Source: a virus. Taken from it: DNA of 32,625 nt. Position numbers and translations under genes: made by a program. The DNA lies in IMG/VR virus record IMGVR_UViG_3300028920_001070, positions 1 through 32,625 of that record; one strand, written 5' to 3'. The notes under the pieces are model-generated. The model saw only the letters and a program-made list of their open reading frames with translations. It did not search any database and was not told the origin of the DNA. Shown one piece after another: positions 5,180 to 20,684 of this stretch (position 1 is its first letter; the number at the start of each line of letters is the position of its first letter).

Positions 5180-5528
5180 GTTTAATTATATCTATAACAG
5201 GCAGCGGGGATATTGTCTGCGCTGCATGGACTTTGGGAATGTGATGAAGAACGTATACTACTCAAAAACACTTATACACTTAAATATATGGTCCGGCTAT
5301 GAGTTTAACCGGATGACAGAATTTCAGCACCGCTGCCATAATACTAAGTGGAGGAGAAAAGCCTTTCCGCTGTTTATAGATAGCATGTTCAACCTGGTGG
5401 GATATTGTAATAAGTGCAATACCAATGATACCAGCTCGCTGAAGATCACTGATGAGAAGGCTGCCAGGTATGAGAGATTTCTGGAGAGACATCCGCAAAT
5501 AGCAAGGTTTGTAAATGGAATATATTAA
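5160..5528 (+). CDS. Small protein with two Cys pairs, unknown function
   Basis: This 122-residue protein starts at ATG 5160, inside the end of the previous gene. A Cys pair near the N-terminus (GYCLRCMDFG) and another near residue 84 (YCNKCNTND) could hold one zinc ion. FQHRCHNTKWRRKAFPLFID lies between them and resembles the basic middle of HNH-like or restriction-related zinc folds, but no HNH histidine pair is clear. The C-terminus (AARYERFLERHPQIARFV) is a helix. The function is unknown. Confidence 0.55.
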   Translation: MENYENKFNYIYNRQRGYCLRCMDFGNVMKNVYYSKTLIHLNIWSGYEFNRMTEFQHRCHNTKWRRKAFPLFIDSMFNLVGYCNKCNTNDTSSLKITDEKAARYERFLERHPQIARFVNGIY

Positions 5529-6234: not shown

Positions 6235-6259
6235 CATTTTTAACGATATGAGATATAAT
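6231..6259 (+). promoter_or_regulatory. Consensus sigma-70 promoter
   Basis: TTGACA (6231-6236) and TATAAT (6254-6259) are separated by exactly 17 bases. The -35 box includes the methyltransferase stop TGA (6232-6234). The expected start of transcription (about 6265-6268) falls on the ATG at 6266, so the first gene may be translated from a leaderless message. It would serve the lysozyme-like gene and the first glycan island. Confidence 0.8.
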
Positions 6260-6265
6260 TATTTA

Positions 6266-6937
6266 ATGAGAAAAGATAGGCAAATATACAAGAAAAGAGC
6301 CACATGGGAAGCTAAAGTCTGCCTTATCCTTCTTATATTTATATCACTTCTGCTGCTCTCCAATATGCTCCGGGGCCAGGAATATCTGATCTCTGACTAT
6401 GACTTCACTAACCAGGACTATACCTTCCAGCGTGTATATAGGTTTGTTAGGTCATATAAGCAGTGTGACCTCAGTTATAGTGATGTAGAGAAGGTTGTCC
6501 GTTTCTGCCATATATATACTGTTAATCCGGTCCTGGTGATTGCCAAGATGCAGATGGAGAGTGATATTATATTCCGCAATACTACGAATAAATCACTGTC
6601 TTATTTAAAATACCGGGCTATGGCCTACGGTATGATACACCACTTTGATCGGGACGGCAAGCGGTTCTGTAAATATGGCGGATATGATTACCAGGTCTAT
6701 TTTGCTATTAAGACTTTGCGGAAACATTTTGACCAGTGGGATAATAATACCTGGACCACTGTGACGGATCTGAAACGTAACATAATGACTGACAATGCTG
6801 CCAGCCATGCGCTGTATAGATATACTCCGTTCTACGGTGTGCATGATACATATAACTGGGGAATGGATGTTATGGGGAATGAGCAGTTTGTAATATTATT
6901 TAACAAGTTTAAGTCTGACTGGGAGGGAATCAGATGA
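6266..6937 (+). CDS. Membrane-anchored lysozyme/transglycosylase-like protein
   Basis: From ATG 6266 the protein has 223 residues. A basic N-terminus is followed by one membrane span (AKVCLILLIFISLLLLSNML, about 15-34) and an outer domain. That domain contains VNPVLVIAKMQMESDIIF, which has the helix and glutamate pattern of lytic transglycosylases and glucosaminidases, and then AYGMIHHFD and YQVYFAIKTLRKHF. It probably cuts peptidoglycan during lysis or entry. In-frame ATGs also occur at 6221 and 6248, and none of the three has a good ribosome site. 6266 is chosen because the promoter lies inside the longer versions. The protein at 14688 is a better-conserved relative in architecture. The exact enzyme class is uncertain. 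Confidence 0.65.
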   Translation: MRKDRQIYKKRATWEAKVCLILLIFISLLLLSNMLRGQEYLISDYDFTNQDYTFQRVYRFVRSYKQCDLSYSDVEKVVRFCHIYTVNPVLVIAKMQMESDIIFRNTTNKSLSYLKYRAMAYGMIHHFDRDGKRFCKYGGYDYQVYFAIKTLRKHFDQWDNNTWTTVTDLKRNIMTDNAASHALYRYTPFYGVHDTYNWGMDVMGNEQFVILFNKFKSDWEGIR

Positions 6938-7014
6938 TCCAGGAATATATTGCCATAATGTGTGTAATAGCTATTGCACTGATAGTAATTACAGCGAGCA
7001 CTAAAGTAAAGTGA
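6934..7014 (+). CDS. 26-residue membrane peptide
   Basis: The tiny gene starts at ATG 6934, overlapping the previous stop as ATGA, with GGGAGGG at 6921-6927. Its product is almost entirely one hydrophobic span (EYIAIMCVIAIALIVITA) with a basic end. The next gene overlaps its stop. Its place directly after a cell-wall enzyme would suit a holin or a lysis regulator, but size alone gives no proof. Confidence 0.45.
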   Translation: MIQEYIAIMCVIAIALIVITASTKVK

Positions 7015-7583
7015 AGTATATATCATACTACACTATGAATACTCCGTATGAGTGTGATGCTGGCAGACTGGAGATGAGCTTTCTTAATCACAATTTGGAC
7101 TTCTGCATATACCGTGTACAAAACTTTCGTAGCTGGGAGAAAAACTGCCAGTATAAGGCCAAGGTGATCCGGGGAGCTCTGGATGACTTTAAGTGCCCAG
7201 TGGTCTATACAGACATAGACTCTGAGGTCCTGAAGGATCCTGTGCTATTCAACGGCCTGGACTGTGACTTTGCTAGCGGATATATCAAATATACCAAAGA
7301 TATGCCGACCAGGCGCTGCAGCGGTCTGCTATCCGGGACTATGTTTTTTAATTATAATCAGAAGGCCCTGGATCTCCTGGACCGCTGGATAGAAAAGAAT
7401 GAGACTAATTATGAATGGGACCAGAGGAATCTGGAGCATGTACTGGATAAGCGGAAGCTGGATCACTATAAGCTCCCGGACTGTTACTGCAAGATATTCG
7501 ACAGCAAGTGGCAGAAGTGTGATGATCCCGTGATATTGCATCACCAGAAAAGCAGAATATACAAGAGGGTAATAAATGGATAA
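7011..7583 (+). CDS. Nucleotide-diphospho-sugar transferase-like glycosyltransferase
   Basis: The 190-residue protein starts at GTG 7011. Residues 63-77 read PVVYTDIDSEVLKDP, with a D-x-D motif (D68, D70) that binds the metal and sugar nucleotide in GT-A enzymes. SGLLSGTMFFNYNQKALDLL and YEWDQRNLEHVL follow, which are the usual marks of the nucleotide-diphospho-sugar transferase family. It is the first glycosyltransferase of the island and overlaps the genes on both sides. The donor and acceptor sugars cannot be read from the sequence. TTG or ATG alternatives near the start do not change the domain. Confidence 0.75.
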   Translation: MKYISYYTMNTPYECDAGRLEMSFLNHNLDFCIYRVQNFRSWEKNCQYKAKVIRGALDDFKCPVVYTDIDSEVLKDPVLFNGLDCDFASGYIKYTKDMPTRRCSGLLSGTMFFNYNQKALDLLDRWIEKNETNYEWDQRNLEHVLDKRKLDHYKLPDCYCKIFDSKWQKCDDPVILHHQKSRIYKRVING

Positions 7584-8226
7584 ATCAGTAAGTATTGTGA
7601 TCCCGTCTATAAAACCGGACTGTAAAGAGCAAATAAAAGAAATACTCGGATGTAAGTATGGTATCCCTGTGGAAGTGTTCTCAGTGAATAAGCAACAGTC
7701 TGCTGCTACTAACCGTAATGCGTGTATTGACAAGGCTAAGCACGATAAAATAATAATGTGTGATGACGATATAACCGGATACTTTGATCTATGGGCTGAC
7801 TACATGCAGGCTCACTTCTATATTGCAGACTACAGCATTTTATCTGTCCGGCCTATAAGGGCAGACGGATCTTTGTGTCCGCACCTGGGAGATAATAATG
7901 GGCAGCTGGATGATAAGGAGCCTATAGTCCGGGCTTTGCATACAGACCGGACCGGGCTTAATCTCTGTGGCTCAGCAACAATAATGTTTAACCGGAAGGA
8001 TGGTATCCGTTTTGACGAGGGATACAAGGGCGGAGGATGCTATGAGGATACGGATTTCTGTATGCAGTATAAAAAAAAGTGGCCAGATCGGGATATTATG
8101 ATTTGTAATGATGTGAAGCTAATACACAATATGGAGCGTAAGGGCAGAGAGACAATGCCAGGGACTTATGATAATCATAATCATAATCGGGGATATTTTG
8201 CAGAAAAGTGGGGTATTGAGCTATGA
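7576..8226 (+). CDS. GT2-like glycosyltransferase
   Basis: This 216-residue protein is a small GT-A glycosyltransferase. It starts SVSIVIPSIKPD and has SAATNRNACIDKA followed by IIMCDDDITGYF, where D63-D65 form the D-x-D motif. Later IRFDEGYKGGGCYEDTDFC carries the ED motif that usually supplies the catalytic base. The protein at 18055 is a clear paralog, with DDDITGF at the same residue numbers, IRFDEEY and YEDTDF, and a similar histidine-rich end. The two differ strongly in codon use. It overlaps the next gene by four bases. The sugar specificity is unknown. Confidence 0.85.
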   Translation: MDKSVSIVIPSIKPDCKEQIKEILGCKYGIPVEVFSVNKQQSAATNRNACIDKAKHDKIIMCDDDITGYFDLWADYMQAHFYIADYSILSVRPIRADGSLCPHLGDNNGQLDDKEPIVRALHTDRTGLNLCGSATIMFNRKDGIRFDEGYKGGGCYEDTDFCMQYKKKWPDRDIMICNDVKLIHNMERKGRETMPGTYDNHNHNRGYFAEKWGIEL

Positions 8227-9071
8227 AAATCGGTGTATATCACAACTGTTCAGATAAGATAACTGGCTGCTGGAAAGTAACTTGGAATCTTATAAATGGT
8301 TTAAAGGAGCTCGGAGTGGAAGTCATAGAGAACGGCCGGGGAGATTATAATGGAGTGATCCAGGACTGCTTTGACAGATACAGTGTGCCTGGTAATGCTC
8401 TCATAGGTCCGGAGATATTTGTGCTGCCGACTGAGAAGTCTGGCCTGCTGGCTACATTTAAAAACTGGGTGCAGCCGAGCAAATGGGTTATAGAATATCA
8501 AAAGCAATTTGCAGAGACTAGAGATAATAATATGTATGCGTGGCCCGTTGGTGTGGATACTGAGCGTTTCAATGATAAAAACCGCAGGCCAAAATATGAC
8601 TGTTTTATTTATTTAAAATCCGTGACCAGGCGCAATGAAAATGTAAGGCTGGAGGATATAGAGAGCTATCTGAAGCGCTACAAATACACGTATAAAATCA
8701 TAAAATATGGAGACTACTCAGAGCCGGAGTTTATGGACCTGGTTAATCGCTGCATGTTTGGGATATGGTTTGTAGGGAGTGAGAGCCAGAACATAGCACT
8801 GCTGGAGTGCCTGGCTATGGGTTGCCCGGTATATGTGATAGATCAGAATATGTTTTATTATAAGGACTTTACTTTCAAGGGATGTAGCTCGGCGCCATAT
8901 TTCGATTATAGATGCGGAGTGAAGCGGCCTGACTTTGCAGATATTGAGAGATTTGCTGCTGACATAGATAAGTATAAGCCGAGGGAGTATGTGACTGATA
9001 ATCATACACTTGCCAGGGGAGCTCAGAAGTATCTGGATATATTGGAGAAACATGAACGTATTAATATTTAG
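8223..9071 (+). CDS. GT-B (GT4-like) glycosyltransferase
   Basis: This is a 282-residue GT-B protein. The N-terminal domain has MKIGVYHNCSDKITGCWKVT and a helix LINGLKELGVEVIENG. AWPVGVDTERF (about 107-117) is the hinge seen in GT4 enzymes. The C-terminal domain has SESQNIALLECLAMGCPVYV (about 187-206), with the glutamate pattern that binds the nucleotide sugar. It is shorter than typical 350-400 residue members. It probably adds a sugar from a nucleotide donor to a glycan at the inner membrane. It overlaps its upstream neighbour as ATGA. Confidence 0.8.
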   Translation: MKIGVYHNCSDKITGCWKVTWNLINGLKELGVEVIENGRGDYNGVIQDCFDRYSVPGNALIGPEIFVLPTEKSGLLATFKNWVQPSKWVIEYQKQFAETRDNNMYAWPVGVDTERFNDKNRRPKYDCFIYLKSVTRRNENVRLEDIESYLKRYKYTYKIIKYGDYSEPEFMDLVNRCMFGIWFVGSESQNIALLECLAMGCPVYVIDQNMFYYKDFTFKGCSSAPYFDYRCGVKRPDFADIERFAADIDKYKPREYVTDNHTLARGAQKYLDILEKHERINI

Positions 9072-9855
9072 TAAGGATCGGCCTATGCAGCTGGACTATC
9101 TGCTGCGCACCATGAGGGATAATTTCCCACTTATAGGCAGGCCAATGGTTTTATACAAGGCCAGTTGTGAGGATAACAAGGCTGGATATACGCTACTGGA
9201 AAGGATGCGCTTTGATGAAGCGAACATCTATGAGGAGCAGGATTTTAATATCAATACTAGGAATTTGGTGGACTGTTTTCGTAAAGATCTCTGCATGTTC
9301 TTGTGTGATGATAATGTGTTCATAAACAGGCTGGAGCTCCAGGAGATGCTGGATCTCAGCTCCCTGCTGGAGAAGAATGAGGATATACACAGCCTGAGCC
9401 TACGGATGCACCCAAAGGTCACTTATTGCTATCCGGCTAAAAAGGAGATGAAGCAGCCTGATTATGATATTATCACAGGATATTATAATTACATGAGGTG
9501 GGATTGGACTAAGGCCGAGGATCAGCATACATGCTGGGGCTATCCTATGGCGATCAATACTCATATATACCGGACCAATGATATAAAAGAGATCATAGAG
9601 AGGGGAGCTTTTAATAATGTCAATTCGTTGGAATCTCATATTAATCGCAATAGGTGGAAGGATAAGCCGCTGATGATCTCTCCGCTGCGGCCTATAATAT
9701 TTGATGTATGCAATAACTACGTAAAAGATGGAGAGTGCGGAGATGAGTGTCTTACAAGGAAATGGCTGGATGGATACCAGATAAAGAACATCACCAATAT
9801 ACCAGATAACGCCTGTCATGGTGTTGTCAATTTAAACCTGGAGAAAAGAAAATGA
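9052..9855 (+). CDS. GT-A fold glycosyltransferase-like protein
   Basis: From ATG 9052 (GGAG at 9044-9047) the protein has 267 residues. It opens with MNVLIFSKDRPMQLDYLLRT, a typical first strand and helix of a GT-A enzyme. LCMFLCDDNVF (D86-D87) fills the D-x-D position. Residues about 148-165 (YMRWDWTKAEDQHTCWGYPM) and a long C-terminal part are distinctive. I recall similar proteins only as uncharacterised glycosyltransferases in phages and bacteria. It overlaps the previous gene by 20 bases. Confidence 0.65.
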   Translation: MNVLIFSKDRPMQLDYLLRTMRDNFPLIGRPMVLYKASCEDNKAGYTLLERMRFDEANIYEEQDFNINTRNLVDCFRKDLCMFLCDDNVFINRLELQEMLDLSSLLEKNEDIHSLSLRMHPKVTYCYPAKKEMKQPDYDIITGYYNYMRWDWTKAEDQHTCWGYPMAINTHIYRTNDIKEIIERGAFNNVNSLESHINRNRWKDKPLMISPLRPIIFDVCNNYVKDGECGDECLTRKWLDGYQIKNITNIPDNACHGVVNLNLEKRK

Positions 9856-10382
9856 TGGGATTTGACTTAAAAAAATATTTTCTGAGCGGGATATTTATAG
9901 AGACCGGGACCGAACATGGTAATGGAGTGAGGAGAGCCCTGGATGCTGGATATACAGAGATACACAGTGTGGAGCTTGCGCCTAATTTTTACCGGGGATG
10001 TATAGATCTTTACTGGAATGATGATAACGTTCATTTGTACTGTGGCAGCAGCCTGGACTTTCTGCCTATTATCATGAAGCACGTACAAAAGCCAGCTACT
10101 ATCTGGCTGGATGCTCATGTGGATAATAACTATATTCAGACTGATATAAAGTGTCCGCTGATACAGGAGCTTGAGATAATCGGAGCTGTGGGCAATCAGA
10201 CTGAGATAAAAGACCATACGATCCTCATAGATGACAGGCGGCTATTCGGCCAGGAAGGTGACTGGGGAAAGAATATATCTGAGGATGAGGTTATAAGCAA
10301 GCTGATGGAAGTGAATCACAAATACACTATAAAATATGAGAATGGGATCGAGGAGAATGATATTATAGTGGCGGCATATTAA
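9852..10382 (+). CDS. SAM-dependent methyltransferase-like protein
   Basis: This 176-residue protein has the pattern of a class I methyltransferase. IFIETGTEHGNGVRRALD (14-31) supplies the SAM-binding loop, IHSVELAPNFYRGC the acidic end of strand two, VHLYCGSSLDFLP the next motif, and ATIWLDAHVDNN the catalytic strand. The order suggests a small-molecule or sugar methyltransferase and not a DNA enzyme. Its place in the glycan island supports methylation of a sugar or glycan end. It overlaps the preceding gene as ATGATG and is followed directly by the next gene. Confidence 0.6.
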   Translation: MMGFDLKKYFLSGIFIETGTEHGNGVRRALDAGYTEIHSVELAPNFYRGCIDLYWNDDNVHLYCGSSLDFLPIIMKHVQKPATIWLDAHVDNNYIQTDIKCPLIQELEIIGAVGNQTEIKDHTILIDDRRLFGQEGDWGKNISEDEVISKLMEVNHKYTIKYENGIEENDIIVAAY

Positions 10383-11036
10383 ATGCAGATAAAAGAGCTA
10401 AATAAGATACAGCACAGAGAGCGACTTCTGATCCTGGGGCATGGTCCCAGTGTGGATAAGCTGCTCCGGGATGTCAGTGCTTACAGAGCTCAGGATATTG
10501 ATGTCATGAGCTTAAATGACTGGTATAATATGTCTATTGACGCTATAGACTTCCAGGTATGCACCAATATCAGCAGCGGTATATATCCCACGTATAAAGA
10601 GAACATCCGGGCCGATACTACTTATTTCTGGGCCAGGGAGTTTGTGCCTGAAGGATACACTGACGGCCTAGAGGCTGACTATTTCTTATACCAGTGGCAT
10701 GATGGCGGCTTTGATCTTACTAAGGCATTTGAGGAGAAGTATCATAGCAGGGTATCAATAGGAGACAGCACTATAATAGTTTGTCTGCTGCTGGCTACAC
10801 TAATGGAGTATAAGCGGATATATTATATCGGAGTGGAGCTGGATGCCAGGCTAGGCTATGGCAGCCGCAAGGGAGAGCTGAAAATAGAGGAGGAGAAGCC
10901 AGAGGATAAGGTCCGGCTAATGGACTACTACAGGCCGAAGATCCTCAATGATATACAGATCTTAAAGAACGCGGCACCTATGCCTATAGTGGATATGACA
11001 CACATGAGCTATGAGGATATAAGGAAAATACTGTGA
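10383..11036 (+). CDS. Sialyltransferase-like (GT42/DUF115-type) Rossmann protein
   Basis: The protein has 217 residues and begins with RLLILGHGPSVDKL (G19-S23 = GHGPS), matching the GxGPS loop of GT42 sialyltransferases and of DUF115 proteins. MSLNDWYNM follows, then SIGDSTIIVCLLLATLMEYK and RIYYIGVELD, which match the conserved helix and the YKEIYLxGxD-like strand of that superfamily. GT42 enzymes transfer sialic acid from CMP donors. The gene directly precedes a formyltransferase and a CMP-sugar synthetase, so a transferase for a CMP-activated nonulosonic acid is plausible. The choice between GT42 and DUF115 needs a profile search. Confidence 0.6.
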   Translation: MQIKELNKIQHRERLLILGHGPSVDKLLRDVSAYRAQDIDVMSLNDWYNMSIDAIDFQVCTNISSGIYPTYKENIRADTTYFWAREFVPEGYTDGLEADYFLYQWHDGGFDLTKAFEEKYHSRVSIGDSTIIVCLLLATLMEYKRIYYIGVELDARLGYGSRKGELKIEEEKPEDKVRLMDYYRPKILNDIQILKNAAPMPIVDMTHMSYEDIRKIL

Positions 11037-11686
11037 ATATTCTTTCTATGTGCAAGGTAGGGAATAAATACGCTGATGAGGCGCTGGAATATCTGGCTAA
11101 AAACTGTGAAGTGGATGTGATTAAAAGTGATAGAAATATATATCTGGATAATTTAAAGTGGCGGTATGATTATATAATATCTTTTCTTTATCCGCATGTT
11201 ATAAACAAAGATGTTTTATGCAGGGCAGAGAAGGGAGCTATCAATTTTCATCCGGGATCTCCTGACTATCCAGGGATCGGCTGTACTAATTTTGCTATAT
11301 ACAACGGAGCTGATAAGTTTGGAGTCACTTGTCATTATATGAATGAGCAGCCGGATACCGGGGATATAATAGACGTACGATATTTTATGATGAATAATGA
11401 AACGGTGTTGAGCTTAACTAATAAATGTTATGCTTATATGCTGGCCCAGTTTTATGACATGATAGATATTATATTACAGGGGAAGGATCTACCTATCTTT
11501 CCGGAGAAATGGACTCGTAAGCCATATATCCGGAGAGAGCTTAATGAGCTGTGCGTTATAACCAGCTACATGGACAAGGATGAGGTGAGCAGAAGGATCC
11601 TGGCCACTGAGTATCCGAGCAAGCCAGGTGCATATATCAATATACATGGTGAAAGATTTGAGTATAACCGGAGGATAAAAGTATGA
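11033..11686 (+). CDS. Formyltransferase (sugar N-formyltransferase-like)
   Basis: This 217-residue protein has the catalytic core of 10-formyl-tetrahydrofolate formyltransferases. INFHPGSPDYPGIGCTNFAI has N71 and H73, and FGVTCHYMNEQPDTGDIID has D108. These are the Asn-His-Asp triad positions. It lacks the long C-terminal tRNA-binding domain of methionyl-tRNA formyltransferase, so sugar N-formylation is more likely. The start is GTG 11033, overlapping the previous stop. Next to a CMP-sugar synthetase it may formylate an amino sugar in the same pathway. Confidence 0.8.
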   Translation: MNILSMCKVGNKYADEALEYLAKNCEVDVIKSDRNIYLDNLKWRYDYIISFLYPHVINKDVLCRAEKGAINFHPGSPDYPGIGCTNFAIYNGADKFGVTCHYMNEQPDTGDIIDVRYFMMNNETVLSLTNKCYAYMLAQFYDMIDIILQGKDLPIFPEKWTRKPYIRRELNELCVITSYMDKDEVSRRILATEYPSKPGAYINIHGERFEYNRRIKV

Positions 11687-12327
11687 CAGCCCTGGTACTG
11701 GCAAGATCTAACAGTGAGCGCTGCCCTAAGAAGCTGATCCGGCCTTTCTGGAAGCTCTATCCGCTTATAGAGATCAGCCTGCAGATATACCGTCATATAG
11801 GCTATGAGGTCTATGTATGCGGAGATAAGCTAATAAACCATATAGCCGAGGAGATGAGATTTCCTACGATCACCAGGGACAGAGAGAGCCTGTCAGGAGA
11901 GAGCTTCAGCCAGGTATATAATTTCCTGGATAAGATAAACGACAATGACATAATGATCCTCAATCCCTGCTTTCCGCTGATCCAGCCCGGCACTATAGAA
12001 GCTGTAGCTGATGAATACCTGGATAATGATTTTCTGAGCTTAATAACCGTGAAGGAGATCCGGAACGTGGTATACTTCAAAAACCTGGCAATGAATGAGG
12101 GGGGAGTGAAAAGCAATAGCAAATACTGTGATCCGGTATTTGAAGCAGCTCCAGCTGTGCAGATATTCAAAAAGAAAATCGCTATGGATATAGGATACCC
12201 TTATATGTTTACCAGGAATGATCCCTACTTATATCCTATAGGGATGTTGGAGGGGACTGATGTGAATACCGAGGATGATTTTAAGGTGGCCAAGGTGCTA
12301 TATAATGAGTTTAAGGGGGAAGAATGA
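11683..12327 (+). CDS. CMP-sugar (acylneuraminate-type) cytidylyltransferase
   Basis: The 214-residue protein opens with LVLARSNSERCPKKLIRPF, matching the nucleotide-binding motif of CMP-nonulosonate and CMP-Kdo synthetases (pattern ARxGSkrxPxKN). MILNPCFPLIQPGTIEAVAD corresponds to the LQPTSPLR strand, and GTDVNTEDDFKVAKVLY matches the final DIDTEEDLxxA motif. It should join CTP to an acidic sugar and release pyrophosphate. No nonulosonate synthase is visible here, so the sugar would come from the host or from genes outside the window. It overlaps the formyltransferase as ATGA. SpsF-type spore coat enzymes share the fold and are an alternative. Confidence 0.75.
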   Translation: MTALVLARSNSERCPKKLIRPFWKLYPLIEISLQIYRHIGYEVYVCGDKLINHIAEEMRFPTITRDRESLSGESFSQVYNFLDKINDNDIMILNPCFPLIQPGTIEAVADEYLDNDFLSLITVKEIRNVVYFKNLAMNEGGVKSNSKYCDPVFEAAPAVQIFKKKIAMDIGYPYMFTRNDPYLYPIGMLEGTDVNTEDDFKVAKVLYNEFKGEE

Positions 12328-12343: not shown

Positions 12344-12700
12344 ATGAGTTGGAGAGATGATTATGAGAATACTAAAAGTGTATGGTGGTATGAAAAAAAC
12401 CTTGATGAACTGGAAGCAGAGAATAAAAAACTTAGGGAGATAGTTATGGCTGTTGAAACAAAGTACCCAAATGAAACTAGGCATGAAACAGCACTGCGAT
12501 ATATAAAAGAACGTGAAAACAGACCATATGGTACAGCAAAAAATAATGACACACTTTTAGCAGATATAAAAAAGATAAAGGAGGATAATATGCCAAGAGG
12601 AAAGAACAGAGGAGCTTGTGGTGGTACACCAAGAAAGGATGGTTCAGGTGGAGGAAAAGGAAACAGGGGTACTAGCCGACAGCCGAAGAAAAAGAAATAA
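12344..12700 (+). CDS. Small charged protein, apparently fused to a Gly/Lys-rich peptide
   Basis: This 118-residue frame has two parts. Residues 1-80 are helical and charged (LDELEAENKKLREIVMAVE) and end in LADIKKI, the tail shared with the other small genes here. Residues 83-118 start at an internal ATG 12590 with its own AAAGGAGGA site and read MPRGKNRGACGG followed by Gly, Lys and Arg repeats, ending QPKKKK. The second part resembles small glycine-rich MPRG peptides. The upstream gene may have lost its stop, or the 36-residue peptide may be made separately from 12590. The function is unknown. Confidence 0.55.
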   Translation: MSWRDDYENTKSVWWYEKNLDELEAENKKLREIVMAVETKYPNETRHETALRYIKERENRPYGTAKNNDTLLADIKKIKEDNMPRGKNRGACGGTPRKDGSGGGKGNRGTSRQPKKKK

Positions 12701-12760: not shown

Positions 12761-13027
12761 ATGAGTATAGAAAGCATATTTGAGGAACTTGAAAATATTA
12801 CAATGAATAATGATTATGTTTGCGACAAAATATCAGAATGTAAAAATGCTTATACCGAACTAGAAACCAAGCTGACCAATAAAGACAAAGCCTTACAGCT
12901 TGCACTTGATACGTTGGAATGGTATGGTGATAATGATTTAAGTGGAGATGAAAGATTTTATGATGATGGACAAAAAGCACGTCAATTTTTAGCAGATATA
13001 AAAAAGATACAGGAGCAGAGTAAATGA
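12761..13027 (+). CDS. Small acidic helical phage protein
   Basis: The gene encodes 88 residues from ATG 12761, preceded by the repeated AGGAGCAGAG ribosome site. It is helical and acidic (IESIFEELENITMNNDYVC), with a middle segment KDKALQLALDTLEWYGD like many small phage proteins of unknown role. It ends in FLADIKKIQEQSK. The tail is shared with both neighbouring cassettes. No function can be assigned. Confidence 0.6.
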   Translation: MSIESIFEELENITMNNDYVCDKISECKNAYTELETKLTNKDKALQLALDTLEWYGDNDLSGDERFYDDGQKARQFLADIKKIQEQSK

Positions 13028-13233
13028 AAAAAATAGTTTGTGATATTTGTGGAAATGATATTAATTTTAAAAACTTTGGAAGGAAAAATCAAGTATATGA
13101 ATATAATGGATATAGAGTAATTATAAAAGCAGGTATCAAGTAAGATGCATATATCGGTAGTCATGATATATGTGGTGATTGTATAATAAAGATAATTAAA
13201 GCAGATATAAAAAAGATACAGGGGGAAACATGA
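13024..13233 (+). pseudogene. Zinc-ribbon small gene interrupted by an in-frame stop
   Basis: From ATG 13024 the frame reads MKKIVCDICGNDIN and continues 39 codons to TAA at 13141-13143. After this stop the same frame stays open for 29 codons (DAYIGSHDICGDCII) and ends in ADIKKIQGET, the shared cassette tail. Two CxxC pairs, CDIC and CGDC, would form one zinc ribbon only if the stop were absent. A single nonsense mutation explains this best. The first 39 residues alone carry half a zinc site. Readthrough is possible but unsupported. Confidence 0.6.
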
Positions 13234-13322
13234 TATTTGAAAAAGCTTGCACAATTACAGCATTAATTATTATATGGATCATTATCTTCGGTTCGATTTA
13301 CTTGCTTGAAAAAAAAGCTTGA
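13230..13322 (+). CDS. 30-residue membrane peptide
   Basis: The gene starts at ATG 13230 with GGGGGAA just upstream and overlaps the previous stop as ATGA. Its product is one hydrophobic helix (ITALIIIWIIIFGSIYLL) with a basic tail. It closes the small-gene array, and its TGA lies inside the -35 box of the 13319 promoter. Its role is unknown. Confidence 0.45.
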   Translation: MIFEKACTITALIIIWIIIFGSIYLLEKKA

Positions 13323-13347
13323 CAATTAAAAAAAATAAGATTATAAT
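13319..13347 (+). promoter_or_regulatory. Consensus sigma-70 promoter for the right module
   Basis: TTGACA (13319-13324) and TATAAT (13342-13347) are 17 bases apart, a perfect consensus. The -35 box contains the stop of the 30-residue membrane peptide. The expected start is near 13354, leaving a 187-base structured leader before the gene at 13541. Confidence 0.87.
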
Positions 13348-13357
13348 AATATTAATT

Positions 13358-13495
13358 CGGGAAAAGAATGTGAAACAAATAGTCTTTTTTAATTACATCC
13401 TCAATGAAGGGGTTGCCCCTTGAATATACCTCATCAGTATTCATGTTCCTTTTCCCGGAAATTTGGGCAATCCCTTTATTCAGGAAGTAATTAAA
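13358..13495 (+). ncRNA. Structured leader: 31-position stem with possible pseudoknot
   Basis: Bases 13388-13418 pair with 13465-13495 over 31 positions: 29 pairs (two G-T) and two mismatches. The 46-base loop contains TGAATA (13421-13426) and TATTCA (13438-13443), which form an inner stem. CGGGAAAAG (13358-13366), near the 5' end of the transcript, can pair perfectly with CTTTTCCCG (13449-13457) in the loop, giving a pseudoknot. AAGGGG/CCCCTT (13407-13420) can form an alternative local hairpin that would compete with the long stem. No T-run follows. It may be a regulatory leader, a protein-binding site or a replication structure. The stem is also an inverted repeat in DNA. Confidence 0.6.
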
Positions 13496-13540
13496 TGAAT
13501 TATTGTGAAAAAAAATATTTCGATTCTATAAAAGGGAAAA

Positions 13541-14299
13541 ATGGCAAAATATAGACATATACAAACATTATTTTGGAATGATCCTGAAATGCTTGAAATG
13601 ACACCGGAAGATAAATATTTTTATTTATTTTTATTAACCAATCCCCAAACAACGCAATGCGGAATTTATGAAATCAGCAAAAAACAGATGGAATATTATA
13701 CCGGATATAATCGGGAAACAATTCAAAAATTATTAAAAAGATGGATCGATTATAATAAAATAAAATACAGCGAAAAAACAAAAGAAATTGCTATAAAAAA
13801 TTGGTTAAAATATAATAATTCTGAATCCCCAAAAGTGAAAAATTGCATTGAAGAAGAATTAAAAAAGGTAAAAGATAGATCATTAATAGACTATATAAAC
13901 AGTATAGATACTGTATATATAGACTCGGGGGAAAAAGAAAAAGAAAAAGAAAAAGAAAAAGAAAAGAAAAAGAAAAAGAAAAGCGATTCAAAAATAGAAT
14001 ATCGTGATAATATTTTATTAACTGAAAAAGAATATAATACTTTATTAATAAAATATGGTAAATCAAATATAAATAAAATATTTGATAAATTATCCTTTTA
14101 TAAACTAGCACATGGAAAACAATATAAATCCGATTATGGCGCAATTAATCAATGGGTTATTGAATCTTTAAAAATTGAACCATTAACACCTATTGATCAG
14201 GAACAGCAAAAGAAAAAAAAACTTGAAATAAAAATACAAAAAATAATGATTGAAAAGGGAATATCATATGCCGATGCGCATAACATGTTAATAAAATGA
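13541..14299 (+). CDS. Phage replication-type protein (second copy of the replication gene class)
   Basis: The 252-residue protein has an N-terminal helical DNA-binding region (FWNDPEMLEMTPEDKYFYLF, CGIYEISKKQMEYYTG, ETIQKLLKRWIDYNKI) typical of phage replisome organisers. Residues about 131-148 are a Lys/Glu run from DNA repeats. The C-terminal domain has LLTEKEYNTLLIKYG and QYKSDYGAINQWVI, clearly homologous to the end of the protein at 3335. The N-terminal domains differ. It starts at ATG 13541 after AAGGG and is first in the operon driven from 13319. The existence of two such genes in one window suggests two replication modules. Confidence 0.7.
   Translation: MAKYRHIQTLFWNDPEMLEMTPEDKYFYLFLLTNPQTTQCGIYEISKKQMEYYTGYNRETIQKLLKRWIDYNKIKYSEKTKEIAIKNWLKYNNSESPKVKNCIEEELKKVKDRSLIDYINSIDTVYIDSGEKEKEKEKEKEKKKKKKSDSKIEYRDNILLTEKEYNTLLIKYGKSNINKIFDKLSFYKLAHGKQYKSDYGAINQWVIESLKIEPLTPIDQEQQKKKKLEIKIQKIMIEKGISYADAHNMLIK
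13931..13984 (+). repeat. GAAAAA hexamer tract inside the second replication gene
   Basis: Ten G residues at spacings of 6,6,6,6,6,5,6,6,5 create an uninterrupted polypurine run of GAAAAA units. Whole hexamers keep the reading frame; the two five-base units shift the translated pattern from EK to KK. The tract sits between the N- and C-terminal domains, the same place as the iterons in the 3335 gene. It may be a slippage site or an unusual origin element. Confidence 0.6.
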
Positions 14300-14697
14300 A
14301 AAAACAAACAATGGATGAAATCTTTTATCATGAAACCCGCAAGGTTCCGGATATAAAAAAGTGCGAATACTGTGAACTTGAATCCCCGCATGATCCGCAT
14401 GAAATATTCTGCGGGCATGGGATCCGGGAAATTTCAATTGAATATAAATTGATTGTATTTGTATGCAGAAAATGTCATGATTTATTACAGCATGGTTATA
14501 AAACCGAAGATGAAAAAAGAGATCAACAACGTAAATGTTTTAAAATTTTGGGGATCCCGCAAATGTATATCCCGGTATATCACATTATTAATAAAAATAA
14601 ATCCGATTGGGATGATACTGATTATATGATAATGAAATCTGTTAAAAGTATTATTAATAAAAAACGGTCAAAAATTGATTATATATTATGCAAATAA
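14296..14697 (+). CDS. HNH-like phage protein
   Basis: This 133-residue protein shows a zinc pattern typical of HNH-related phage proteins: KKCEYCELESPHDPHEIF, then GHGIREISIEYKLIVFVC, RKCHDLLQHGY and EKRDQQRKCFKILG. The ordered CxxC, HxxF, RxxS, CxxCH and Q motifs resemble phage HNH or DUF968-like proteins that act in recombination. The catalytic His is less clear than in the 2887 protein, so activity is uncertain. It overlaps the replication gene as ATGA. Confidence 0.55.
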   Translation: MKKQTMDEIFYHETRKVPDIKKCEYCELESPHDPHEIFCGHGIREISIEYKLIVFVCRKCHDLLQHGYKTEDEKRDQQRKCFKILGIPQMYIPVYHIINKNKSDWDDTDYMIMKSVKSIINKKRSKIDYILCK

Positions 14698-15917
14698 ATA
14701 TTGATAAAATATTAAAGCCCTGGTATTTTACAGGATTTAGCGTATTATTAACAATACTTGTTTTTATTATGTTTATTTCAATCAGATCAAATTATCGGGA
14801 TGATCTTAAAGATATCAGATCCGAAGATAAATATTTCAGGGGAAGGATTGCGGAATATGTTGTTATACCGGAACGGGAAAAGCTTTTAAAATATACCGAT
14901 TATTATTATAAACTGATTGGGTGGTATGGGGAAAAAGTTCAATCCGGAAGGGGGATGAACAAATATCAAAAAACTGATTTTGTATTATATGCATACAATT
15001 ACGAAAAATGGATCGGTTTACCGCATTTTTATTTTATAAGCAAAGCAAAAATTGAATCAAGTTTTAATCCAAAAGCAACCGGAGCATTGGGGGAAGTAGG
15101 ATTATTTCAGCATATGCCCACCGCCGATGTTATTGGAACCGCATATATGGAATTAAATAACCTTCGCATTAATCAACCTTGGCTTGCCCGTAAACTTGAA
15201 TTTATTTTTAATTCGGAACAGGATTTAACGGATCCGATTAATGCCTTGAAGGTTGAAGCATTGCTTTCATCATATTACAAGCGGAAGTTTAATAATGAAT
15301 TAATATATTGGGTTTCCGCTGTTCATTGGGGGGAAGGAAGAATTGCAAAATTATATCGGGATAAATTAATGCCGATTTATAAACATTTTAATTTTACAAG
15401 CAGGGAAACAGCGGAAAAATATTCCCGATCCCCTTTAATGTATTATTATGTATGGGCGGAACATTATCATGCCTTTATGAATTTTCGCAAGGATGTGAAT
15501 GTTGATAAAGGTTGGATTGATATATACAAATCCGAATGCAGTAAACAAGAAAAACTATTTATCGAAGGATATAAATTTTTTCAAAAGGGAATGAATTATC
15601 ATGATCAGATAAAAAAGGAAATGGAAGATGTTAAAAAGCTTGAATTAAAATATTACGATTTGATAAAAAAAGGTGACAAGGAATATAAAAAACTATTAAA
15701 GCTGATGAAGCAGGGCAAATTTAAAAACATAGCAAAGGAAATCTTTATTCCCGGAAGGATCTTTTTTAATCAAATCTTGGATGAAATATCCCGGGAATCG
15801 AAGGAAAACAACAGGCGGTTTATTGCATTTATTCAATTATTTATTATAATAATAATTGGGTTTTTAACAGGATTTGGAGTATATTGCATTATTAAAAAAA
15901 TACTTAAAAGGATATGA
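14688..15917 (+). CDS. Membrane-anchored lytic transglycosylase
   Basis: The 409-residue protein has an N-terminal membrane span (FTGFSVLLTILVFIMFISI, about 14-32). A lytic transglycosylase domain follows, with KAKIESSFNPKATGALGEVG (E123 as catalytic acid) and LFQHMP (139-144). VSAVHWGEGRIAKLY and a conserved Tyr-rich segment YSRSPLMYYYVWAEHYHAF complete the domain. Then come a coiled-coil region (about 280-350) and a C-terminal membrane span (FIQLFIIIIIGFLTGFGVYC). The enzyme cleaves peptidoglycan between MurNAc and GlcNAc. Spans at both ends are unusual for a phage endolysin and might give membrane-tethered control of lysis. It overlaps the previous gene by 10 bases. Confidence 0.82.
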   Translation: MQINIDKILKPWYFTGFSVLLTILVFIMFISIRSNYRDDLKDIRSEDKYFRGRIAEYVVIPEREKLLKYTDYYYKLIGWYGEKVQSGRGMNKYQKTDFVLYAYNYEKWIGLPHFYFISKAKIESSFNPKATGALGEVGLFQHMPTADVIGTAYMELNNLRINQPWLARKLEFIFNSEQDLTDPINALKVEALLSSYYKRKFNNELIYWVSAVHWGEGRIAKLYRDKLMPIYKHFNFTSRETAEKYSRSPLMYYYVWAEHYHAFMNFRKDVNVDKGWIDIYKSECSKQEKLFIEGYKFFQKGMNYHDQIKKEMEDVKKLELKYYDLIKKGDKEYKKLLKLMKQGKFKNIAKEIFIPGRIFFNQILDEISRESKENNRRFIAFIQLFIIIIIGFLTGFGVYCIIKKILKRI

Positions 15918-15918
15918 A

Positions 15919-16071
15919 ATGAAAAATTTTGTTTATTTAATTTTATTTTTATCAATTATTGCAACCGCTGTTTTCATTTTTGCTACTTATAAAAAGGTAT
16001 TAAAGATCGAACAGCAAGGAAACAGGATTGAAAACCAAACGGGTAAATTAAATTATCTATTGCCCGAATGA
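15919..16071 (+). CDS. Small membrane protein with helical tail (holin/spanin-like)
   Basis: The gene has 50 residues from ATG 15919, with AAAAGGAT just upstream. Residues 2-22 are a membrane span (KNFVYLILFLSIIATAVFIFA), followed by a charged helix (KVLKIEQQGNRIENQTG). This layout resembles the inner-membrane part of a spanin or a small holin. It directly follows the transglycosylase gene, so a lysis role is likely, but no outer-membrane lipoprotein partner is seen. Confidence 0.55.
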   Translation: MKNFVYLILFLSIIATAVFIFATYKKVLKIEQQGNRIENQTGKLNYLLPE

Positions 16072-16085
16072 AAAAGGATAATTAA

Positions 16086-16424
16086 ATGATTATTGCAATT
16101 GATTTTGATGGAACAATTGTTGAACAGGAATTTCCGAACATTGGAGCAATAAAGAAAAACGCAAAAGAAGTAATTAATAAATTGCATGAAGATGGGCATT
16201 ATATAATTATATGGACATGCCGTTATACAAATTCTGATTTACGATCAATGATACAATTTTTAATTGAAAACGACATTTGGTATGATTCAATAAATAATAA
16301 TTGCGATAATTTATCATTTGTACCGCATCCAAAAATATACGCTGATGTTTACATTGATGATCATAATCTTGGCGGGGTTCCTGATTGGTATGAAATATCT
16401 AAAATTATATGTAAAATGACATGA
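16086..16424 (+). CDS. HAD-superfamily phosphatase-like protein
   Basis: A 112-residue HAD-fold protein. IAIDFDGTIVEQEF places the catalytic motif DFDGT at residues 6-10. IIIWTCRYTNSDL gives motif II (T near 46), and PKIYADVYIDDHNLGG gives the late acidic motif (DD). Small phage HAD proteins of this form act as nucleotidases or sugar phosphatases. Placed between lysis and glycan genes, it may dephosphorylate a sugar intermediate. The family is clear, but the substrate is not. Confidence 0.85.
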   Translation: MIIAIDFDGTIVEQEFPNIGAIKKNAKEVINKLHEDGHYIIIWTCRYTNSDLRSMIQFLIENDIWYDSINNNCDNLSFVPHPKIYADVYIDDHNLGGVPDWYEISKIICKMT

Positions 16425-16531
16425 ATTACGAAATATTAAGATTATCAACGGGAAAGCTACAATTTGAAATATCTAAAAAACATTGGGTTATAAAAATATA
16501 TTTTAAAATATGGAATTATTTTAATAAATGA
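16421..16531 (+). CDS. 36-residue protein of unknown function
   Basis: The short gene begins at ATG 16421, overlapping the HAD stop, and ends with TGA overlapping the next ATG. Its product is basic and aromatic (KKHWVIKIYFKIWNYFNK). The double ATGA coupling supports a real translated gene linking its neighbours. No function or domain is recognised. Confidence 0.45.
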   Translation: MNYEILRLSTGKLQFEISKKHWVIKIYFKIWNYFNK

Positions 16532-17235
16532 AATATTCTGAAGTAACATTAACAATTACAACATCAAAGCGATTCAATCTGTTTAAAAAAAGCATTATGT
16601 CATTTTATGATAGATGCAAAGATTGGGATTTAATAAAAAATATTATAATTGTTGATGATGCATCAAGCAAAACAGATATTGAAAACATGAAGCAATTATT
16701 ATCCGGTATAAAAAAAGATATACTTTTTATATGCAAGGATAATCCGGATCATGTTCAATCGTTAAATATTTTATTTGACAAGGTAAAAACCGATTATGTA
16801 TTTCATCTTGAAGATGATTGGAATTTCATTCAGCATGGAAATTTTATCCGGGAAGGATTTGAAATAATGGCGGATAATGATAAAATAAAAACGGTTATTA
16901 TGCGGAACTGGATCAAACAGGGAAACAAGGATTTTCACCGTTGCAAAACAAAAACCGGGCTTGAATATCATATACATCATTATAATTTTAAAAAACACAT
17001 CCCCGGGGAACTGAATACATATCCCGGATACAGCTTGAATCCTTCATTGCAAAATATGAAACATATAAAAGATATAATCGGCAAGTTTACAAGAACAATC
17101 AATTTTGAATTACAATTTGCTTTAAGATACTGCAACATCGGAACCGGATTTTTAACCGCAATGATGGCGAATGATTATTGTGAACATATCGGCACAAATA
17201 TAAATGCGTATGCATTGAATAATACGAAACCATGA
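16528..17235 (+). CDS. GT-A glycosyltransferase-like protein
   Basis: The 235-residue protein starts with VTLTITTSKRFNLFKKSIMS, like GT2-type enzymes, and has NIIIVDDASS (VDD near 42) and YVFHLEDDWNF, where E95-D97 form the acidic metal-binding motif. GYSLNPSLQNMKH follows near the middle. The protein at 19504 aligns along its whole length (TTSKRF, SEDDWNF, LTLNPSL, EHTGT), so the two are a paralog pair. It overlaps both neighbours as ATGA. Its sugar donor is unknown. Confidence 0.75.
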   Translation: MKYSEVTLTITTSKRFNLFKKSIMSFYDRCKDWDLIKNIIIVDDASSKTDIENMKQLLSGIKKDILFICKDNPDHVQSLNILFDKVKTDYVFHLEDDWNFIQHGNFIREGFEIMADNDKIKTVIMRNWIKQGNKDFHRCKTKTGLEYHIHHYNFKKHIPGELNTYPGYSLNPSLQNMKHIKDIIGKFTRTINFELQFALRYCNIGTGFLTAMMANDYCEHIGTNINAYALNNTKP

Positions 17236-17798
17236 AAAAATATAATATAATATATGCTGATCCGCCTTGGCGTTATAATGACAAATTAGGATGTGATAAT
17301 GCAAAAATGGGAGCAGTTGAAAATCATTATAATACGATGACATTAAAAGATATATGTAATTTAAAGATTCAAGATATATGCGCGGATGATTGTGTTTTAT
17401 TTTTATGGGTTACGATGCCCTTATTAAATATATCATTTGATGTGATTAAATCATGGGGGTTTATATATAAAACATGTGCTTTTACTTGGATTAAATTGAA
17501 TCCGAAAAGCAAAACAATTTTCAAAGGCATTGGGCGTTGGGTTCAAGGAAATGCGGAATTAATTTTGTTAGCAACAAAAGGAAAACCGAAAAGAATAACA
17601 AAGTCGATGGGGCAAGTCGTGATGGCGGAAAGGGGGAAGCATTCAGTTAAGCCGGATATTTTTAAAGATAAAATAACACAATTGATGGGGGATATACCTC
17701 GCATTGAATTATTTGCCCGCCCTTGGTCAGAATTGCAAAATAAATATGAAGGTTGGGATGTATGGGGGAATGAAGTTGAATCTGATATTAAATTATGA
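17232..17798 (+). CDS. MT-A70-family adenine-N6 methyltransferase
   Basis: This 188-residue protein is a compact MT-A70 member. YNIIYADPPWRYND places DPPW at residues 10-13. NHYNTMTLKDICNL and VLFLWVTMPLLNISFDVIKS match the family core, and RWVQGNAELILLATKG and KPDIFKDKITQLMG complete it. ELFARPWSELQNKYEGWDVWG is the usual C-terminal end. Family members methylate adenine N6 in DNA or RNA. In a phage the natural role is DNA protection. It sits inside the glycan island, overlapping the upstream GT. Confidence 0.9.
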   Translation: MKKYNIIYADPPWRYNDKLGCDNAKMGAVENHYNTMTLKDICNLKIQDICADDCVLFLWVTMPLLNISFDVIKSWGFIYKTCAFTWIKLNPKSKTIFKGIGRWVQGNAELILLATKGKPKRITKSMGQVVMAERGKHSVKPDIFKDKITQLMGDIPRIELFARPWSELQNKYEGWDVWGNEVESDIKL

Positions 17799-17809
17799 AG
17801 GATTAAATT

Positions 17810-18055
17810 ATGCAGATAGAAAAATATGAAACACAGCCGATTAAAGTAGTTTGTCATTGCGAAAAATGCGAAGAAGGATATATGAACGCAACGGGAAGAA
17901 CCCGCAAGGTTATATCAAAAATTGTTCATTTACATAAATGCAATCGATGCGGTATATTTGCGGAACTTGATTCATCGTTTCCGAAATTGGAATTCCCGAA
18001 GGGCAAGCGGATCCCTGATGAAGAAGAAAATACAATAAATCCGGAAAATAACTGA
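17810..18055 (+). CDS. Small zinc-ribbon protein
   Basis: The 81-residue protein starts at ATG 17810. VVCHCEKCEEGYMNATG has two or three Cys for one half of a zinc site, and HKCNRCGIFAEL the other half about 30 residues later. The tail is acidic and disordered (IPDEEENTINPENN). It resembles small phage zinc-ribbon proteins of unknown function. Its stop overlaps the next start. Confidence 0.65.
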   Translation: MQIEKYETQPIKVVCHCEKCEEGYMNATGRTRKVISKIVHLHKCNRCGIFAELDSSFPKLEFPKGKRIPDEEENTINPENN

Positions 18056-18717
18056 TGATTATACCTGATATCTGTATTCCAACAAATAAAAAAAGATCTG
18101 AAATTGATGATCTTATAAAAGATATAAAAGCAAACACCCCGGAATTCAACCGGATCATTGCATCTTGTCAACCGTTATCAGCATCGAAAAATCGGAATTA
18201 CTGTTTATCATTTGCAAATTCTGATATCATTGTCATGATGGATGACGATATTACAGGATTTTATCCTGGTTGGTTAACGAACTTTATACATCCCATGTTG
18301 GAAGATCCATTAATTATTATTTGTTCCGCCCGATTGCTTGATAAAAACCGTAAACGAATTAACAATATGGGGATGATCGGCGGATCCGGGGAATTGCAGG
18401 AAATCCCCGCTTCCTTTAATCACAAAGGAACAGGATATAAAAGAGTTACAACGGCTTGCATTGCAATCCGCAAAAATCATATTCGATTTGATGAAGAATA
18501 TATTAAATCCGGTTATGAAGATACGGATTTTATGAATCAGATTTCCCGGGCGTTCCCGGCAAGCAAATTTATTGTTAATAACAATTGCGAATTGATACAT
18601 TTGAATCATATGCAGGGGCAAGATGATCGGGAAGCATGGCAACATAATCACGATCATTATTGTAAAAAATGGGAATTTGATACGGTTGCGAAGGATCAAA
18701 AATGCTGGGCGAAATGA
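18055..18717 (+). CDS. GT2-like glycosyltransferase (paralog of the 7576 gene)
   Basis: The 220-residue protein has IIPDICIPTNKKRSE, SASKNRNYCLSFA and IIVMMDDDITGFYPGW, with D63-D65 as the D-x-D motif at the same positions as in the 7576 protein. IRFDEEYIKSGYEDTDFMNQ contains the ED catalytic motif. The final WQHNHDHYCKKWEF also matches the ending of the paralog. Its codons follow the AT-rich right-half style, so the pair diverged in different settings and is not a recent copy. Confidence 0.85.
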   Translation: MIIPDICIPTNKKRSEIDDLIKDIKANTPEFNRIIASCQPLSASKNRNYCLSFANSDIIVMMDDDITGFYPGWLTNFIHPMLEDPLIIICSARLLDKNRKRINNMGMIGGSGELQEIPASFNHKGTGYKRVTTACIAIRKNHIRFDEEYIKSGYEDTDFMNQISRAFPASKFIVNNNCELIHLNHMQGQDDREAWQHNHDHYCKKWEFDTVAKDQKCWAK

Positions 18718-19481
18718 TGAATCAGATCATTGAAGGTGATTGCCTGGATGTTATGAAGGATATTCCGGATAAAAGCATAGATATGATATTATGCGATTTG
18801 CCTTATGGCACTACAGCCTGTTCATGGGATGTTGTTATTCCTTTTGATTTATTATGGGAACAGTATAAAAGAATAGTTAAGGATAATGCTTGTATATGTT
18901 TATTTGGAAGTCAGCCATTTACAACGGATTTGATAATGAGCAATAGAAAAATGTTTAAGTATGAAATAATATGGTGTAAGGAAAGGGGACAGGATTTTAT
19001 CAATGCAAAAAAAAGACCATTAAAAGCACATGAAAATATATTGATATTCGGAAATAAAATAAAATACAATCCTATTATGGAAAAAGCAAAAAGGGAAAAT
19101 ATTAGGAAGGTATCTGATTTAAATCAACCATCAGAAGTATATGGCATTAATAAAAAAGCTAGTAAAGACTACGACATAGAAAAGCGTTATCCGAAAAGCT
19201 ATATACAATATTCAAGTGGTAGGGCAAGAGACAAAGAACACTCCGCACAAAAACCAGTTAAGCTATTTGAATACCTTATAAAAACATACACCAATGAAAA
19301 TGATATTGTATTAGATAACTGTGCAGGATCAGGAACTACAGCTATTGCCTGTTATGAAACTAACAGAAAATATATATGCATAGAAAAGGAAAAAAAATAT
19401 TGCAACATTGCCCGGAAGCGATTGCAAGAAAAAAAGGATTGTTATGGATTATTACATAACGAACAAATGGCAACCTTGTAA
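18702..19481 (+). CDS. DNA methyltransferase (paralog of the 5515 gene)
   Basis: The 259-residue protein has IIEGDCLDVMKDIPDKSIDM followed by DLPY (32-35), then GSQPFTTDLIMSNRKMFKYE and KKRPLKAHENILIFGN. AGSGTTAIACYETNRKYICI lies near residue 208. The motif order is beta class, and DLPY replaces DPPY as in a known phage subgroup. It should modify phage DNA. The start could also be ATG 18714 or 18717; 18702 has AAGGAT six bases upstream. The first 30 and last 50 residues are close to the 5515 enzyme, with an unrelated target region between. It overlaps the GT upstream by 16 bases. Confidence 0.88.
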   Translation: MLGEMMNQIIEGDCLDVMKDIPDKSIDMILCDLPYGTTACSWDVVIPFDLLWEQYKRIVKDNACICLFGSQPFTTDLIMSNRKMFKYEIIWCKERGQDFINAKKRPLKAHENILIFGNKIKYNPIMEKAKRENIRKVSDLNQPSEVYGINKKASKDYDIEKRYPKSYIQYSSGRARDKEHSAQKPVKLFEYLIKTYTNENDIVLDNCAGSGTTAIACYETNRKYICIEKEKKYCNIARKRLQEKKDCYGLLHNEQMATL

Positions 19482-19503
19482 AATAAAGATGGAAAGTTTT
19501 AAA

Positions 19504-20196
19504 ATGAAATATCCTTCAATAACCTTTACTTGCACAACATCAAAACGATTTGACCTATATGTTCAAATGATGATATCGTTTTTTTATTCATGCCTTGACA
19601 TGGATTTGATTGAAAATTATATAATCGTTGACGATGGAAGCCCGATAAATGAAATACACGAAATGGGAAGATTATTCCCAAAAACAAATGTAATCAAGAA
19701 TACAAAAGGCGGTCAATTAAACAGTATTAAAATGATCCTTGATTGCGTTGATACTGAATATATGTTTCATTCAGAAGATGATTGGAACTTTTTGATTCAA
19801 GATCATTATATCCGCAAGGGATTTGATATCATGCATACGGATTCTAGGATTAAACAGGTAACGTTGCGATTTTGGGAATGCATGTATATCAATGATGATG
19901 GGCTTGAATATCGCATGCATAATTATTCCCCGATGGACATCAAGGAAGATTATGATATAATTAAATATTCTGATTGTAATTATGGCGGATTGACATTGAA
20001 TCCTTCATTGATTCATGTTCCAACATTTAAAGAATGTATGAAAAACGTTCATCAAGAAAACAGCGAATCAAGAATTTGGGATAAAAAACTTTCAATGAAT
20101 TATTGGAATGCAGGATATAAAAGGGCAAATCTGAACGATGAATATATTGAACATACCGGAACATATGATTCAAGATATCCCAGGATAAACGCATGA
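19504..20196 (+). CDS. GT-A glycosyltransferase-like protein (paralog of the 16528 gene)
   Basis: From ATG 19504 (GGAAAG upstream) the protein has 230 residues. MKYPSITFTCTTSKRFDLYV matches the start of the 16528 protein, and NYIIVDDGSP and YMFHSEDDWNFL carry the acidic motifs. GGLTLNPSLIH and EYIEHTGTYDSRYPR match the paralog further on. Longer in-frame starts at 19408, 19444 and 19489 overlap the methyltransferase and do not align, so 19504 is preferred. The specificity is unknown. Confidence 0.75.
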   Translation: MKYPSITFTCTTSKRFDLYVQMMISFFYSCLDMDLIENYIIVDDGSPINEIHEMGRLFPKTNVIKNTKGGQLNSIKMILDCVDTEYMFHSEDDWNFLIQDHYIRKGFDIMHTDSRIKQVTLRFWECMYINDDGLEYRMHNYSPMDIKEDYDIIKYSDCNYGGLTLNPSLIHVPTFKECMKNVHQENSESRIWDKKLSMNYWNAGYKRANLNDEYIEHTGTYDSRYPRINA

Positions 20197-20681
20197 AAAA
20201 AATAAAATTATCACAAAATCAATTTGCATTAGTTGATGATGAAGATTTTGAAAAATTAAATAATAGGAAATGGAGTGCGAAATTTGATAATCATACAAAT
20301 AAATTTTATGCATATGGGCATCTTGATAAAAAGAATAATTATAAATCTATTTTAATGCATCGTTTTATAATGGGGTTCCCTACAAATAAACAAATAGATC
20401 ACATAAATAAAGATACACTTGATAACAGAAAAATTAATTTAAGAATTGTAACAAATGCGCAAAATCAAGCTAATCGATGGAAAAACAAAAAGTGTTCATC
20501 AAAATATAAAGGAGTTATTTATCTTTCAAAAATTAATAAGTGGTATTCAAGAATATGTTTTGCTAAAAAATCATATAATATAGGTATTTTTAATTCTGAA
20601 GAAGAAGCCGGGCTTGCATATAATAAAAAAGCAAAAGAATTATTTGGAGAATACGCTTGTTTAAATAAAATAAAGGTGTGA
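20193..20681 (+). CDS. HNH homing endonuclease with AP2-like domain
   Basis: This 162-residue protein has the order of a freestanding phage homing nuclease. LMHRFIMGFPTNKQIDHINK and DTLDNRKINLRIVTNAQNQA form the HNH core with the two key histidines and the closing Asn. An AP2-like DNA-binding domain follows (YKGVIYLSKINKWYSRICF, NIGIFNSEEEAGLAYNKKAK). Such enzymes cut intron-less or unoccupied copies of their site and spread with the DNA around them. It lies inside the glycan island between a GT and a radical SAM gene, overlapping the GT stop as ATGA. Confidence 0.9.
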   Translation: MKKIKLSQNQFALVDDEDFEKLNNRKWSAKFDNHTNKFYAYGHLDKKNNYKSILMHRFIMGFPTNKQIDHINKDTLDNRKINLRIVTNAQNQANRWKNKKCSSKYKGVIYLSKINKWYSRICFAKKSYNIGIFNSEEEAGLAYNKKAKELFGEYACLNKIKV

Positions 20682-20684
20682 TAT

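Follow-up and report, generated by a model that had tools for sequence, protein, structure and literature searches.

The viral record analysed here (IMGVR_UViG_3300028920_001070; the window is its whole stretch of 32,625 nt) carries, between a consensus promoter and a replisome organizer gene, a 187-nt segment (13354–13540) whose main stem, termed P2, is real and lies well above chance. A second helix, termed P1, interleaves with P2. We propose, with moderate confidence, that the segment is a cis-acting 5′ leader that would be transcribed, refold co-transcriptionally and so control or stabilise the replication transcript. More generally, the leader is probably a local control element, a function that we infer from its architecture and position. 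Left and right parts below refer to the two sides of a composition break at ~13.23 kb.

Table 1 Features of the leader and its surroundings
Feature	Position	Strand	Evidence
Sigma-70 type consensus promoter, TTGACA-17-TATAAT	13319–13347	+	12/12 matches; transcript start expected at ~13354
P1 5′ strand (pseudoknot or alternative helix)	13356–13376	+	RNAduplex with the loop
P2 5′ arm	13388–13418	+	Inverted repeat I1; fold z −7.7; p ~2e-5
Small GC hairpin, AAGGGG-UUG-CCCCUU	~13407–13421	+	Sequence; folds of partial transcripts
Hairpin P3 (7 pairs), within the P2 loop	13422–13443	+	Minimum-free-energy fold
P1 3′ strand, inside the P2 loop; bulges 13439 and 13449	13437–13459	+	RNAduplex
P2 3′ arm	13465–13495	+	Inverted repeat; fold; shuffle statistics
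Replisome organizer/DnaD-like helicase loader gene, first behind the leader	13541–14299	+	phrog_6251 E 1.5e-57; phrog_1701 E 1.9e-37

The main stem stands well above chance

The initial annotation had described a 31-position stem with two mismatches around a 46-base loop, and recomputing the coordinates and the pairing gave the same architecture. P2 comprises 27 Watson–Crick pairs, two G–U wobbles (G13406/U13477 and G13412/U13471) and two mismatches (A13397/A13486 and C13402/C13481), closing a loop of 46 nt. Its ungapped inverted-repeat score of 28.6 was by far the highest in the record, where the second-ranking repeat of the right part reached 17.0 and the top one of the left part 16.6. Dinucleotide shuffling of the right part, repeated 60 times, gave scores of at most 22.7, and the Gumbel p for P2 was ~2e-5 for the whole right part. 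Folded as RNA, the 108 nt of the plus strand yielded −43.7 kcal/mol (z −7.7), a value equalled by none of 200 shuffles, compared with −39.2 (z −5.8) for the minus strand, and the fold of the whole 187-nt leader reached −51.0 (z −4.0).

A second helix interleaves with the main stem

RNAduplex paired the 5′ end of the expected transcript with the P2 loop in a 21-pair helix interrupted by two single-base bulges (−23.4 kcal/mol). The earlier suggestion of a pseudoknot through nine complementary bases thus holds for the exact complement, 13358–13366 with 13449–13457, and for the possibility of a pseudoknot, whereas the helix itself is predicted to extend to 21 pairs and not 9. A helix as good arose in 11 of 20,000 double shuffles and at 8 of 2,680 positions of the same geometry in the right part, p values (~0.0005 to 0.003) that are somewhat flattering, as P1 was tested after it had been noticed. 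P1 contains three G–U pairs and P2 two, and all five are pairs on the plus strand and A–C oppositions on the other. This one-sidedness, with a probability of 1/32 if transitions are strand-neutral, is no more than a hint of pairing as RNA.

The 11 single-stranded nucleotides connecting P1 with P2 (13377–13387) would have to span the whole 31-position stem, for which they look too short by an estimate from A-form geometry. P1 and P2 are for this reason probably alternatives, or else P2 would be limited to its inner 16 pairs while P1 formed in full. The smaller GC hairpin that had been said to compete with the main stem was indeed present in the folds of transcripts ending between ~13420 and 13470. 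When the loop was paired with the ribosome-binding site, the result was no better than in shuffles (2152/4000), which does not support an anti-Shine–Dalgarno switch through the loop.

Folds of growing transcripts predict an exchange of helices

Computed as equilibrium values at each length, not as kinetics, the folds of growing transcripts changed from the 21-pair helix enclosing the small hairpin at an end of 13460 (−27.9), through a state in which the inner part of P2 prevailed at 13480 (−35.3), to the entire P2 at 13490 (−44.4). The folding order P1 then P2 is accordingly a thermodynamic prediction. In the mechanism that we propose, RNA polymerase would start near 13354, so that the right-hand phage's early replication transcript would begin with the leader. 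The first ~107 nt would fold into P1, which would keep the 5′ end base-paired and enclose the small GC hairpin. Once the 3′ arm of P2 emerged, P2 would form and displace P1 wholly or partly. Such refolding would most likely control either the passage of polymerase, as a polymerase-modifying or attenuating leader, or the decay of the message, by way of a protective or RNase III-processed 5′ end, and its net effect would be to set the level of the replisome organizer.

The leader shares the composition of the right-hand phage

The two sides of the record differ strongly in composition. Tetranucleotide correlations corrected for base composition were 0.87 within the left and 0.92–0.96 within the right part, but only 0.06–0.23 between them, and dinucleotide distances were 71 (left–left), 58–84 (right–right) and 231–275 (left–right). 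The CpG observed/expected ratio was ~0.5–0.6 on the left versus 1.2–1.4 on the right, and GGCC was counted 48 times over the 13.3 kb of the left part versus once over the 19.3 kb of the right (13300–32625), a strong avoidance suggestive of a restriction system that cuts GGCC in the host of the right-hand phage. Each part has its own replication initiator, RepO-like on the left (3335–4045; Pfam PF04492) and DnaD-like on the right. Both parts also contain unusual sugar and modification genes (5515–12327 and 16086–24602), with glycosyl-, cytidylyl- and formyltransferase-like types, DNA methylases and radical SAM proteins.

Leave-one-out scores per 100 nt placed 12344–12700 on the left side (−11.3), were intermediate for 13025–13228 (−0.3), and assigned 13231–13323 (+14.2), 13324–13540 (+10.5) and the stem (+15.9) to the right. 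A 23-nt repeat occurs at 12991–13013 and 13200–13222, and directly after its second copy comes the break, at ~13222–13231, ~100 nt 5′ of the promoter and ~160 nt 5′ of the stem. The intermediate segment 13025–13228 is a CxxC...CxxC open reading frame, open except for one in-frame TAA (13142–13144). As the compositions to the left and right of ~13.23 kb are incompatible, two unrelated phages have probably been joined in this contig, either as a chimera or by a very recent fusion, an origin that would explain the break better than one long-established genome does. The initial annotation had located the leader at the junction of two modules; by composition, promoter and hairpin belong wholly to the right-hand phage, the break lying upstream of both and separating two mutually alien compositions. 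The break warns against treating the record as a single genome that holds two replication modules.

So abrupt a break might itself suggest that the stem arose by chance or as unusual sequence at a point of misassembly, the explanation that we consider the most improbable of all. The break lies well 5′ of a stem with a right-like score, and chance is opposed by the p of ~2e-5. Artefactual inverted duplications, moreover, are expected to be near-identical, and not 87% complementary as here.

Promoter, downstream gene and lack of a terminator-like site

The leader is flanked as had been proposed, by a perfect promoter just upstream and a replication gene downstream (Table 1). Altogether, four perfect TTGACA-17-TATAAT promoters occur in the record, at 2587, 6231, 13319 and 27180; behind that at 2587 come a GC hairpin and, further on, tRNA-Met. 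Within the right part, the second such promoter, at 27180, lies upstream of a 497-aa open reading frame between the terminase and head genes, the terminase, scaffold and major head genes being located at 25–32 kb. It has the extended motif CTTGACAA..GATTATAATnAATAnnAATT in common with the promoter at 13319, and no fold comparable to the 13354–13540 leader was found behind it. A possible 17-codon leader open reading frame, from GTG at 13370 to TGA at 13423, overlaps the 5′ arm of P2 and is without a clear ribosome-binding site.

The view that the structure is neither a standard terminator nor a recognised riboswitch was borne out. We found no terminator-like site on either strand of 12800–14200, the stem being followed by UGAAUUAUUG. 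A search of Rfam 15 at the gathering score identified only a tRNA (2792–2863) in the record, and sub-threshold matches to the leader were at chance level. The strong promoter and a compact fold of ~140 nt would also be in keeping with a separate trans-acting small RNA made from the 13319 promoter. We regard this as very unlikely, since no terminator lies behind the fold and the gene begins 46 nt past P2 in the same direction.

The leader is an orphan among the records searched

A blastn search with 13300–13560 against phages and plasmids returned as best matches only the AT-rich promoter or chance similarity. Among viral contigs we identified 57 relatives of the replisome organizer, and upstream of 33 distantly related replisome-organizer loci the top inverted repeat scored 15.1 versus 28.6 here, with no comparable hairpin. 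A covariance search with a model built from the segment had been proposed; run with this single sequence, it revealed no relatives in 33 viral records or in 391 genomes, which represent one bacterial class and maybe not that of the host. Scanning for the stem pattern gave four matches in viral contigs, coding or unrelated palindromes attributable to chance, and two in genome contigs, an intergenic repeat palindrome and a terminator-like hairpin. Searches of the viral contigs with the terminase, the head protein, RepO and the two proteins flanking the junction returned no close relatives; the right-hand phage has none in the public viral set. By these comparisons the leader is an orphan, a homologue being absent among the viral, phage/plasmid and genome records searched, from which very near records may be missing.

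Absence from relatives is also what a degenerate miniature mobile element that landed by chance behind the promoter would produce, and 108 bp with 31-bp inverted ends of 87% complementarity do resemble a decayed non-autonomous element. We nevertheless judge this origin decidedly unlikely. The record holds no second copy of the stem, matches to the inner arms in viral contigs were due to chance and none in genome contigs was relevant. No target-site duplication is visible at the stem ends (no direct repeat at 13387/13496). The composition agrees with that of the right-hand phage, and leader sequence beyond the repeat pairs with the loop inside it, which would not be expected of an insertion. 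A mobile-element origin, which the initial annotation had named among the findings that would overturn its reading, hence drew no support from further copies or duplicated target sites.

A putative origin lies inside the replisome organizer gene

In 47 distinct relatives, the replisome organizer contains an EKEK linker coded almost only as (AAAAAG)n, in which all 258 glutamate codons were GAA (GAG 0) and 250 of 258 lysine codons were AAA (AAG 8). Outside the linker, the same genes used GAA 815 and GAG 296 times, and AAA 967 and AAG 364 times (73% GAA, 73% AAA). The loci of the relatives were partly picked by the EKEKEKEK peptide pattern, a choice that selects the linker and not its codons. The linker is preceded by a G-run and short repeats (GATACGT, GATACCGTAT, ATAGACT) and lies in the first 400–600 nt of the gene, up to ~840, in the relatives L002–L056; in the record itself, linker and preceding repeats occupy ~13890–13985. 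From this codon pattern it is likely that a replication origin with an unwinding repeat is embedded in the coding sequence of this gene family.

Such a putative origin inside the gene weakens a DNA-level role of the upstream stem. Protein sites are commonly near-perfect inverted repeats, and this one immediately precedes the gene for a protein of the origin-binding type, so that it could act as DNA, whether bound by the replisome organizer or a regulator, as a cruciform for either of them, or as part of an origin. Given that the origin of the family appears to be in the gene, that the upstream hairpin is absent from relatives, and that the one-strand G–U pairs, like the second, interleaved helix, are more readily explained at the RNA level, we consider such a role unlikely.

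Discussion

The interpretation as a cis-acting, refolding leader draws together several lines of evidence. P1 and P2 each exceed chance, G–U pairs occur on the plus (transcribed) strand only and the reverse strand folds worse, and the predicted fold changes from P1 to P2 as the transcript grows. The perfect promoter is located directly 5′ and the first gene directly 3′ with no notable coding between, and composition assigns promoter, leader and gene to one genome. On the opposite side, the lack of a homologue entails a lack of covariation, such a structure is missing both behind the second perfect promoter of this phage and at the 33 related replisome-organizer loci, and the strand bias of the five G–U pairs amounts to 1/32 only. 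From the promoter to the gene there is no terminator to be controlled, and the final fold does not clearly occlude the ribosome-binding site. Should the refolding prove real, the leader would be a timing device that works without protein on a phage replication operon. A further reading, which we judge quite unlikely, sees in it a novel type of phage leader RNA, in which the P1-to-P2 exchange would time the passage of polymerase into the replication gene, and hence transcription across the putative in-gene origin. At present there is one orphan structured leader, real and strong, for which we infer the function.

Among known systems, RNase III-processed or stabilising leader hairpins of the T7 type are long, imperfect, mismatched duplexes near the 5′ end of early messages. 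The present leader resembles them in exactly this respect; unlike it, they need no second interleaved helix. Its strand order (P1 5′, P2 5′, hairpin, P1 3′, P2 3′) is that of HDV-like ribozymes, whereas P4 and an Rfam match are missing, and the 5–8 nt between the 3′ strands of P1 and P2 offer no candidate for an HDV-type catalytic cytosine (13460–13464 is AATTT).

The HK022 put RNA is ~70 nt long and forms two stem-loops with a triplex in the first stem (PMC9378689). Like put, the leader is a structured RNA that closely follows an early phage promoter and would be expected to act on the transcribing polymerase, whereas the description of put (PMC9378689) and the predicted architecture here, one 108-nt stem with a long interleaved helix, set the two apart. 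The operator of T4 gene 32 is a pseudoknot of ~28 nt followed by UUAAA/UAAA repeats, to which the gene product binds (PMC535899). The T4/RB69 gene 32 leader operator likewise places a pseudoknot in the leader before the gene for a phage replication protein; here, in contrast, the helices are far longer, the gene encodes a replisome organizer and not an SSB, and 13496–13540 contains no UUAAA/UAAA repeat series of the T4 gene 32 type. By the features tested, the leader is a member of neither group, and by analogy it would work most like promoter-proximal phage leaders such as HK022 put and the gene 32 operator.
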